Source of the DNA: Rhizophlyctis rosea
Lineage: Eukaryota; Chytridiomycota; Chytridiomycetes; Rhizophlyctidales; Rhizophlyctidaceae
Length of the DNA: 64,000 bases
Direction of reading: 5' to 3'
Assembly: GCA_027596075.1 (NCBI GenBank)
Contig: JADGJC010000002.1
Coordinates: forward strand, 124,001-188,000
Both the position numbers and the translations under genes were made by a program. Of the stretch, positions 24,301 through 27,062 are shown piece by piece. Below the pieces are notes generated by a model that saw only the letters and a program-made list of their open reading frames with translations, did not search any database and was not told where the DNA came from. How positions within the stretch are numbered: position 1 is the stretch's first letter; the number at the start of each line of letters is the position of its first letter.

Positions 24301-24316
24301 AGCTTTGAAAAAAGCT
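24301..24316 (-). promoter_or_regulatory. Histone-type 3' stem-loop of H2B mRNA
   Basis: On the minus (transcript) strand AGCTTT-TTTC-AAAGCT: a perfect 6-bp stem and 4-nt loop UUUC, starting 93 nt after the H2B stop codon. The geometry, loop sequence and G2-C3 stem positions match the replication-dependent histone mRNA stem-loop bound by SLBP in animals and algae; the remaining stem bases do not follow the animal consensus. Confidence 0.65.
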
Positions 24317-24409
24317 CGTATCTTTGATTTGGAATTTTGCACTACCCTACAACTGCACTAGCTGCCCTTCACGCCCATCACAAGACCGAAGCTGTTTGTT
24401 GGTGACAGC

Positions 24410-24998
24410 TTATTTCGAGGACTGGTACTTTGTGACGGCCTTGGTCCCCTCGGAGACGGCGTGCTTGGCGAGTTCGCCGGGGAGGATGAGGCGGACGGCG
24501 GTTTGGATTTCGCGGGAGGAGATGGTGGAACGCTTGTTGTAGCTGGCAAGCTATTATGGGAAAGGAAAGTCAGATATTTATGTCGAAGAGAAGCGGCGGC
24601 GAAGAAAAAGAAAAAGGTAAGTTGGATAGGAAACATACCTTGGATGCCTCACCGGCGATGCGCTCGAAGATGTCGTTGACGAAGGAGTTCATGATGGACA
24701 TCGCCTTGTTGGAGATACCGGTGTCGGGGTGAACTTGCTTGAGGACCTTGTAGATGTAGGTGGAGTAGGTTTCCTTCCTGGCCTTCTTCTTGTTCTTTCC
24801 GTCCTTGCCCTTCTTCTCAGTGGAGGTCTTGGCGGGGGCCTTGCCAGCGGGCTACGTTGAAAAAAACAAGAGTGAAAGGTTAGCAACGATGTCGAAGCAT
24901 CTTGGGTGGCGAAGTGGCCAAGCTTGAGAAAAAAGGGAAAAAGTAATACGAACCTTCTTGCCAGCGACAGCAGCAGCGGGAGCTTCCTTGGGGGCCAT
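24410..24998 (-). CDS. Histone H2B
   Basis: Core histone, partner of H2A in the nucleosome. Exons 24998-24954, 24851-24639 and 24550-24410 join to 132 aa. After a Lys/Ala-rich tail the histone fold shows [57 protein letters not shown] and [19 protein letters not shown]. The C-terminal helix [16 protein letters not shown] contains the conserved ubiquitination-site lysine context. The gene is divergent from H2A across a shared 752-bp promoter region. Its 3' flank carries a histone-type hairpin. Two introns make it unlike the intronless replication-dependent histone genes of animals. Confidence 0.98.
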
Positions 24999-25127
24999 TG
25001 TTGATGTTGTTTGTGTACAGTTGGAAGAGTGGAAAGTTGTTGTGTGTGTTTCGCAAGTCGATTGTAACGCGAGGTGAAGTGTGTGTGGTTGAGTGAAGTT
25101 TGGAGGGGGGTTGTGGGTGGGTGTCAC

Positions 25128-25135
25128 GCTTTTAT
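25128..25135 (-). promoter_or_regulatory. TATA box of H2B
   Basis: TATAAAAG on the minus strand, 130 nt upstream of the H2B ATG. Confidence 0.65.
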
Positions 25136-25623
25136 AGAAATCGCCGGGCTTGTGTTTGGGGCCGGGTGACATTGCAATCACCACCAAATTTGGGATTCAT
25201 TTGATTGCTCACTGGCTGGGCTGCTGAGTCAAGCCCACAAGCGCGTCGTGCCTGTAATCACCAGTGCGCCCCTGATCACAGCTTGCACATCACGTGGACT
25301 CGAATACCTTCCTTTTTGGGACACATTGATTGCCTACAGGTCTGACCGACTGGATTCACATTTTCGATTGTTAATGCATTGTTACCATACAATTACGGAG
25401 TTTTCTCGACTGGAGTTGCAGTAGGACCTATACCAGTACTCTAAAGAGTTGTTCAGAGAGTTTTCAAGACCAGGCATGGTGGGCTCGCTGTCTTCTCTTT
25501 AACAGAAGAGCAGCGATGTGGAGATCCAGAGAGTCACGTGATTTCCATTTTGGGACGAATTGGCCATCAGAAAACGCGTCCAACTGTGATCACACCCAAA
25601 ATTCAATTTGTGTCCCCCAAGAC

Positions 25624-25630
25624 TATAAAT
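25624..25630 (+). promoter_or_regulatory. TATA box of H2A
   Basis: TATAAAT on the plus strand, 121 nt before the H2A ATG, mirroring the H2B arrangement. Confidence 0.65.
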
Positions 25631-25750
25631 ATCAGCGGGGACGCGTCACCCCATCAGTTTGGTCACATACAACTTGCTCAACTTCGAGACCTTCAAGCTT
25701 CCTCAACTTCTCCACCCTCAACACCAACAACACCAACAACAACATCAACA

Positions 25751-26337
25751 ATGGCTGGTGGCAAAGGCAAATCTGGTGCTGCTGCTGACAAGGCTGGCAA
25801 GTCCGCCAAGTCCCGCTCTGGTCGCGCTGGTCTTCAATTCCCCGTCGGTGAGTGTTTGCAACTTTTCTACTTCCACGTCCTCCATTACTTCGCATCTTTC
25901 CACCTGTACTCATCCACTGTCTATCATAACATCAGGTCGTATCCACCGTCTCCTCCGCAAGGGCAACTACGCTCAACGTGTCGGTGCTGGTGCCCCCGTC
26001 TACCTCGCCGCTGTCCTCGAATACCTCGCCGCCGAAATTCTCGAACTCGCTGGCAATGCCGCTCGTGACAACAAGAAGACCCGTATCATCCCCCGTCACC
26101 TTCAACTCGCCATCCGCAACGACGAAGAATTGAACAAGCTCCTCGGCAACGTCACCATCGCCCAGGGTGGTCAGTATCTTTTTGCCTTGTGCTTTCTTAT
26201 GCTTTTGCAACCTTATCGATTCAGTCATACTCAACCTATCTCCTCTATTCTCTCCAGGTGTCCTCCCCAACATCCACCAAGTCCTTCTTCCCAAGAAGTC
26301 CAAGGGTGGCAAGCCCGGTGCCACCGAATCCGCCTAA
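25751..26337 (+). CDS. Histone H2A
   Basis: Core histone. Exons 25751-25847, 25936-26169 and 26258-26337 join to 136 aa. Diagnostic blocks are [58 protein letters not shown] and [14 protein letters not shown]. The tail ends KPGATESA, without the SQ(E/D) phosphorylation motif, so this is a canonical H2A rather than H2A.X, which many fungi use as their only H2A. An H2A.X or H2A.Z would have to be encoded elsewhere. The 3' flank has a perfect histone-type hairpin. Confidence 0.98.
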
Positions 26338-27062
26338 GCACCCATCATCAACCATCGCCATCGCACCCATCCCCTTCCTTGCTGACTAGCTTCCAAGTCG
26401 CCATTTTGCCGACAGCGGGTTTCCCCGCTAAGCTGGAACAGCCTCTCCGAAAATCAGGAATAACAGCAAAGTGATTACTGTTCTTGTAAATAATACCTGT
26501 CTTTTGCACGAATATATAAAAGATAAACAGCGAACGTTCTTTGTTTCAATGTGAAGTTATGACCTGCTCATATGTAACACCTTCTACATTATAATGATCC
26601 GCGATTGAGAAATGGCCATGTGCAAGCACAAATTCATAACCCGATCTTGTTTTCTTCAGGTTTCATTCTTGAATGTTCAAACAAGCCTTCATGCAATTTG
26701 AAAGCGATGTCGTTGACGATTGAACCTCGACACGTCAAAGGATGTCCACCAACTTCACCAGGGCCTCTGCTTTTCCCCATGATTTCGCAAAGTCAGTGCC
26801 TGGTCTGCAATTCCCGCTGTACAACTCGGCCAACATGGTTCAATCCCGAACAACGAGCAAGTCAAGCAGATGACGATCAAAAAAAAAAGTCTATATCCAG
26901 GCACACAAGGAAAGCATATACAAATAAATATGACGGCCCGTCATAAAATCATGACAAACAAAAAAGTATAATGCTGCTAACTACTATCCAAACGTCCCTC
27001 TCTGCGCTTCGTGGGCACAGGTCCTTTCCCGTAACCATTCAATGATCCGTCATCTATCTATA
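26338..27062. other. Convergent region between H2A and DES1
   Basis: H2A 3' UTR with the hairpin, then about 600 bp in which I recognise no gene. Short frames (for example 26605-26946) lack any recognisable feature. Confidence 0.4.
26414..26429 (+). promoter_or_regulatory. Histone-type 3' stem-loop of H2A mRNA
   Basis: AGCGGG-TTTC-CCCGCT: perfect 6-bp stem with UUUC loop, starting 77 nt after the stop codon. Compared with the H2B hairpin, pairs 1-3 (A-U, G-C, C-G) and the loop are identical, while pairs 4-6 are G-C instead of U-A, i.e. three compensatory changes. Confidence 0.65.

Follow-up and report, generated by a model that had tools for sequence, protein, structure and literature searches.

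In the present work, we examine two histone genes, and the hairpins behind them, in a 64,000-nucleotide (nt) stretch of the genome of Rhizophlyctis rosea (Chytridiomycota), called the window below. The genes, for H2B and H2A, each have past the stop codon a six-pair hairpin with a UUUC loop, and the same genome encodes an SLBP, a histone RNA hairpin-binding protein, with an intact RNA-binding domain. In animals a hairpin of this type serves to end histone mRNAs and to set their timing. Such hairpins are not randomly distributed, and one is kept in an H2B-derived 3′ end whose surroundings have diverged. We consider it fairly probable that R. rosea retains a control of histone mRNA by SLBP and hairpin, one that Fungi would share with animals and that later fungi would have lost. 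In the best reading of the data, this control covers part of the histone set.

An initial annotation of the window had proposed that SLBP-type control is retained in this fungal lineage. In outline this idea is likely, because SLBP is encoded; the SLBP and the hairpins of H2A- and H2B-type genes speak for it, and the hairpin-free H3- and H4-type genes against it. To call the system animal-type would be too strong, since H3 and H4 stand outside the hairpin set and the mRNAs may end either just past the hairpin or downstream of it.

Hairpins behind H2A- and H2B-type genes

The two hairpins and their genes are the following.

24301..24316, minus strand: H2B 3′ hairpin AGCUUU-UUUC-AAAGCU, read in the sequence, 93 nt past the H2B stop
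26414..26429, plus strand: H2A 3′ hairpin AGCGGG-UUUC-CCCGCU, read in the sequence, 76 nt past the H2A stop
24410..24998, minus strand: H2B gene with coding exons 24998-24954, 24851-24639 and 24550-24410 (splice sites by eye; tblastn to human H2B)
25751..26337, plus strand: H2A gene without SQ tail, with coding exons 25751-25847, 25936-26169 and 26258-26337 (splice sites by eye; tblastn to human H2A)

Both hairpins were found on direct reading where the initial annotation had placed them. Its description of perfect stems with a common loop and common outer three pairs, and with pairs 4-6 switched, is correct: the inner three pairs differ between H2A and H2B, yet all are paired. It had also called the stems covarying; both do pair, but the comparison is one of two unrelated genes, which falls outside the usual meaning of covariation. 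Of its stop-to-hairpin distances, the 93 nt for H2B holds, whereas the 77 nt for H2A is 76 by our measurement. The genes form a divergent pair with three coding exons each, which agrees with its placing of the hairpins on intron-containing histone genes.

For a wider view, the 300 nt downstream of 20 histone-like genes were collected genome-wide, the stops of H2A and H2A.Z having been corrected, and a hairpin was defined as six pairs, a 4-nt loop and six pairs (6-4-6), with at most one G-U. Hairpins of this kind with a TT(T/C)N loop occur in 5 of the 20 regions (H2A_C112, H2A_C44, H2A.Z_C613, H2B_C112 and H2B_C72a, the two on C112 being the pair in the window), and all five loops are UUUC. On the antisense strands of these regions there are none. 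Four regions were left out beforehand, prior to the shuffle test, namely H2B_C72a (a copy of C112, with the hairpin), H2A_C46 (a cut copy of C44), H3f_C27 (a fragment) and unk_C312; no UUUC hairpin is present in the 300 nt of the last three. In the remaining set of 16, a six-pair stem with a UUUC loop behind the stop, as in the Rfam family RF00032, is found four times, at H2A, H2B, H2A.X and H2A.Z.

In 2000 dinucleotide shuffles of these 16 regions the mean was 0.04, with no hairpin in 1921 shuffles, one in 78, two in a single shuffle, and three in none. The claim of the initial annotation that the hairpins exceed chance is thus borne out, and the observation of the two hairpins stands. A scan of all 256 tetraloops over the same regions gave seven gene matches, four for UUUC and one each for AAAA, CATC and GTAG, which makes UUUC the commonest loop. 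Elsewhere in the DNA examined, 365,598 positions hold 6 UUUC hairpins, of which two are the very sites that led to their loci.

Genome-wide searches point to the same 3′ flanks. The exact 16-mer of the H2B hairpin has three matches listed in the 44.1-Mb genome, all behind H2B or H2B-derived 3′ ends. The pattern AGCNNNTTTCNNNGCT gave 82 listed sites, and its reversed control 75. Perfect pairing is found in 5 of the 82, at two H2B genes, an H2A gene, the C54 site described next and C116; the one on C116 lies inside a coding exon, and the other four are in 3′ flanks that are of H2A, H2B or H2B-derived type.

The best sign of selection, as judged from the sequence, is the retention of the hairpin in C54 (L034:1501-1630) amid diverged surroundings. 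This is a small gene that resembles the end of H2B in its last part and its 3′ region; its protein has no Pfam match at E≤10, and its best match among solved structures has E 0.35. Compared with H2B_C72a, the stretch from -9 to +1 around the hairpin is identical at 26/26 positions, the preceding 3′ untranslated region (UTR) at 40/84 and the following stretch at 9/32. Against H2B_C112 the corresponding values are 25/26, 44/87 before and 13/37 after. The 3′ UTR of H2B_C72a was itself copied recently from that of C112, with 78/84 identities before the hairpin and 20/35 after it. The hairpin is unchanged in two of the H2B-derived 3′ ends (C72a and C54), and in C535 pair 3 is broken. Thus, with 26/26 in C54 and the broken pair in C535, the hairpin has been retained in one diverged H2B-derived copy and lost in another.

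H2A_C44 ends in SQEY and is therefore of the H2A.X type; its hairpin stem extends to eight pairs. The SQEY tail is found in the H2A at L011 and L016 and not at L014 and L023, so that both kinds are present in R. rosea. According to passages of PMC2642717, H2A.X replaced canonical H2A in fungi.

Some hairpins were not counted. The one at H3_C312 has seven pairs, a 3-nt loop and -5.7 kcal/mol, and that of its paralogue C489 six pairs with a G-U and -1.1. The H3 genes on C312 (L003) and C489 (L017) have a common 3′ UTR block, in which the 3-nt-loop hairpin is followed by UUUGCGGCUUUC; of the two, C489 has the shorter and weaker stem. Another hairpin, close to an H4-like stretch on C614 (L033), was dropped, as only an N-terminal H4 fragment is present there, inside an unrelated open frame.

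SLBP in R. rosea and other chytrids

Two exons on C90 came up in a profile search with PF15247, and by themselves they already pass the cut-off; joining by hand across three introns gave a gene model of 310 residues. The protein scores 113.4 bits with Pfam SLBP_RNA_bind (cut-off 27) over profile positions 2-70 of 70, that is, over the full domain, and its matches among solved SLBP structures include 4l8r, a histone RNA hairpin-binding protein, with E 2.7e-21. The initial annotation had named the lack of an SLBP homologue as evidence against its idea; an SLBP is encoded in this genome and has relatives in many chytrids.

In an alignment of 12 SLBPs, R267 is fully conserved, and T257, which belongs to the TP(D/N)K motif, is nearly so. 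By the structure-match alignment we take R267 to be the equivalent of human Arg181, and T257 that of the TPNK threonine, human Thr171; G7 of the hairpin is presumably the G of the second stem pair. A second-pair G is present in the hairpins of H2A, H2B, C54, H2B_C535 and H2A.Z. As passages of PMC10388802 have it, binding by human SLBP needs G7, and the Arg181-G7 contacts are the sole base-specific ones. Because the reading arginine and the second-pair G are both present, recognition of most of the hairpins by SLBP appears plausible.

In the mechanism that we favor, H2A- and H2B-type mRNAs would be bound by SLBP at the UUUC hairpin of their 3′ UTR, and this binding would couple the export, translation or decay of these mRNAs to DNA replication. 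The 3′ end would be made either by cleavage just past the hairpin or by poly(A) addition near a downstream UGUANAUA.

Two protein searches, with 42 and 56 matches, many of them unnamed, gave SLBPs in 15 named genera: Rhizophlyctis, Entophlyctis, Batrachochytrium, Gaertneriomyces, Fimicolochytrium, Nowakowskiella, Spizellomyces, Geranomyces, Polyrhizophydium, Thoreauomyces, Phlyctochytrium, Cladochytrium, Gorgonomyces, Boothiomyces and Hyaloraphidium. These genera are chytrids or close kin. No other named fungus is among the matches, the other named ones being animals and one alga. In the second search, scoring was limited to the 7,992 candidates with the most words in common, and relatives can escape a word filter; for this reason, and owing to the nameless matches, the absence of SLBP from other fungi is unproven. 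In databases, a number of entries for chytrid SLBPs already bear the name 'histone RNA hairpin-binding', which makes the protein visible there. A search of viral contigs for SLBP found nothing.

Compared with known SLBP/HBP proteins (Pfam PF15247; PDB 4l8r and 4tux), the R. rosea protein has the same full domain and the equivalents of Arg181 and Thr171, and it differs in an N-terminal stretch common to chytrid SLBPs, around ADSIDTG and VESLLTQSSR. Between an SLBP filed as Rhizophlyctis rosea (P0001) and the one on C90 the identity is only 72%, over 57%, and the species name may therefore cover more than one lineage.

Weighing the proposed SLBP-hairpin control

A number of results weigh against the retained control. 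In the animal-type replication-dependent system the hairpin is on all core histone types. Here it is found in none of the six H3-type and none of the three H4-type regions (300 nt each), and it is missing or broken in three of the seven of H2A/H2B type (H2A_C51, H2B_C72b and H2B_C535). The initial annotation had stated that it would count against its idea if H3, H4 and further H2A/H2B copies had no hairpin; this applies to H3, H4 and those three, and the other four H2A/H2B-type regions carry the hairpin. Moreover, H2B_C535 keeps 33/40 identities to C112 downstream, yet only 14/16 in the hairpin and 18/26 over -9 to +1, and in the six-pair register the second pair of the H2A.X hairpin has C in place of G.

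The search with the Rfam histone stem-loop, proposed in the initial annotation, also went against it. In the 213-nt 3′ region of H2B, cmscan places RF00032 on 24302-24315, which is the hairpin minus its outermost pair, with 12.0 bits and E 2.6 against a gathering score of 34, and this is not significant by itself. RF00032 is absent from the 223-nt 3′ region of H2A even at E≤10 and from 16 histone loci at the same threshold; there is none in the window at the gathering cut-off, and none genome-wide among 75 scored of 4665 candidates. Our own covariance model R1, built from seven hairpin stretches, returned over 22 histone loci six training members and two weak matches (E 0.63 at L015 and 9.9 at L023), with nothing at H3 or H4. 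Pair statistics on the R1 alignment were not used, as they are circular, most rows having been picked for pairing.

The folds of 42 nt are mostly not unusual for their composition, with z values of -0.03 for H2B, -1.19 for H2A, -1.58 for H2A.Z, -2.47 for H2A.X, -1.03 for C54 and +1.07 for C535. The flanks of the animal hairpin are absent around the hairpins. They include two 5′ A and one 3′ A, according to an extract of PMC10388802.

The 3′ ends have also to be considered. UGUANAUA is present downstream of both window hairpins, and behind other window genes as well:

24275..24282, minus strand: UGUAUAUA, an instance of UGUANAUA downstream of the H2B hairpin; probably a general 3′-end element
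26485..26492, plus strand: UGUAAAUA, an instance of UGUANAUA downstream of the H2A hairpin; probably a general 3′-end element
50088-50095, plus strand: further UGUANAUA behind a window gene
56225-56232, minus strand: further UGUANAUA behind a window gene

Its position past both hairpins suggests poly(A) addition downstream, a further point against. In 420 nt behind each stop (several being first in-frame stops that may lie in introns), UGUANAUA is present in sense in 10/20 histone and 9/14 Sm/Lsm regions, and in antisense in 3/20 and 3/14, against a background of about 0.04 for every 300 nt of strand. At H2A.Z it lies within 420 nt of the corrected stop. Since Sm/Lsm genes have UGUANAUA as often as histone genes, it is probably a general 3′-end element of the R. 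rosea genome, and a histone-specific PUF site was rejected on the same ground.

Parts of the U7 machinery were not detected either. No U7 small nuclear RNA (snRNA) was found among 65 scored of 4319 candidates, in a search that recovered no control; for Lsm11 the best genome-wide match has E 2.94; and Lsm10, sought only among 19 LSM-domain matches, was not detected there. To these matches 14 of the 15 expected Sm/Lsm proteins could be assigned, with Lsm4 missed and a weak match at L068 left over. These tests are weak, because no U7 control was recovered, the scope for Lsm10 was narrow and Lsm4 was missed too.

We now turn to the competing explanations. One of them is a sub-form of the retained control, set apart by its 3′ end: SLBP binds the hairpin, the mRNAs are polyadenylated near the downstream UGUANAUA, and the hairpin, instead of signalling the 3′ end, acts in translation, decay or storage. 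We give this somewhat less than even weight, and its probability overlaps with that of the broader reading. The sense counts of UGUANAUA, its place past both window hairpins and the failure to find U7 parts favor it. However, as far as passages of PMC1924863 go, most C. elegans histone genes hold AATAAA past the hairpin and most mRNA still ends at the hairpin, so a downstream poly(A) signal decides nothing. An excerpt of PMC9756948 describes a human H2A gene that can use either 3′-end pathway. If instead the hairpins were some other 3′ UTR element of H2A and H2B, for example for termination or decay, the chytrid SLBP would have other targets. The hairpin-free H3- and H4-type genes would fit, as would the G-rich 5′ side of the H2A stem and flanks unlike the animal ones, but the prominence of UUUC among 256 loops, the six-pair stem with its mostly second-pair G, and an SLBP with the reading arginine make this unlikely.

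That the histone mRNAs are ordinary fungal polyadenylated ones, with no hairpin control and SLBP as a relic, would agree with a review, parts of which state that plants and fungi are without the system (PMC6723414), and with the bare H3/H4-type genes. A complete SLBP domain whose key residues are conserved across chytrids is unexpected in a relic, and we regard this explanation as distinctly improbable. Even less credit can be given to accidental inverted repeats at H2A and H2B. The loss of pair 3 in C535, the fact that C72a, being a recent copy, adds no independent case, and the hairpin in the coding exon on C116 are what one could cite for chance; none of the 2000 shuffles reaches three genes, and the 26/26 retention in C54 also speaks against it.

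A more specific form of the retained control is a split histone system in chytrids. SLBP and the UUUC hairpin would govern the H2A-H2B side, including H2A.X and H2A.Z, without U7, and H3 and H4 mRNAs would be ordinary polyadenylated ones; the hairpin would have reached a non-histone gene together with an H2B 3′ end, and selection would have maintained it there. We regard this combination as doubtful.

Known systems and further observations

Like the animal hairpin of RF00032, those of R. rosea have a six-pair stem, in most cases a second-pair G, and a position in the 3′ UTR at most 150 nt past the stop; UUUC is the loop of the human histone hairpin too. They differ in the A-U first pair of the window's two, in their varying inner pairs, flanks and low Rfam score, and in being confined to H2A/H2B-type genes, which bear introns. 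Bdelloid rotifers also combine introns and hairpin in histone genes (passages of PMC2642717), and C. elegans also has a poly(A) signal behind the hairpin (passages of PMC1924863). Both differ from R. rosea in that their H3 and H4 genes carry the hairpin as well.

Protists were reportedly surveyed by Davila Lopez and Samuelsson in 2008. We found no paper on SLBP or the histone stem-loop in chytrids, in a literature whose coverage was thin for subscription journals, and an earlier report is possible. A working SLBP-hairpin pair in chytrids would contradict the statement in parts of the review PMC6723414 that fungi are without the system. The pair would then date to the common ancestor of animals and fungi, and its loss would fall inside Fungi; R. 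rosea would be an organism where SLBP may act without U7, on only half of the nucleosome.

A few further features can be mentioned.

24999..25750, no strand: interval separating the start codons of the divergent H2B and H2A genes, a presumed shared promoter (from gene order; promoter role deduced)
24290..24295, minus strand: GGUUUC, 5 nt past the H2B hairpin
27289-28257, minus strand: desaturase open reading frame, 100% identical at 92% coverage to an R. rosea protein

GGUUUC is also present 4 nt past the H2A.Z hairpin, and a GGCUUUC variant in an H3 block; noticed post hoc, these may be a shared downstream element. Finally, at H2A (window 26432-26442, plus strand), H2A.Z (L007) and C54 (L034), the UUUC hairpin is followed by another short hairpin, whose loop has 3 nt.
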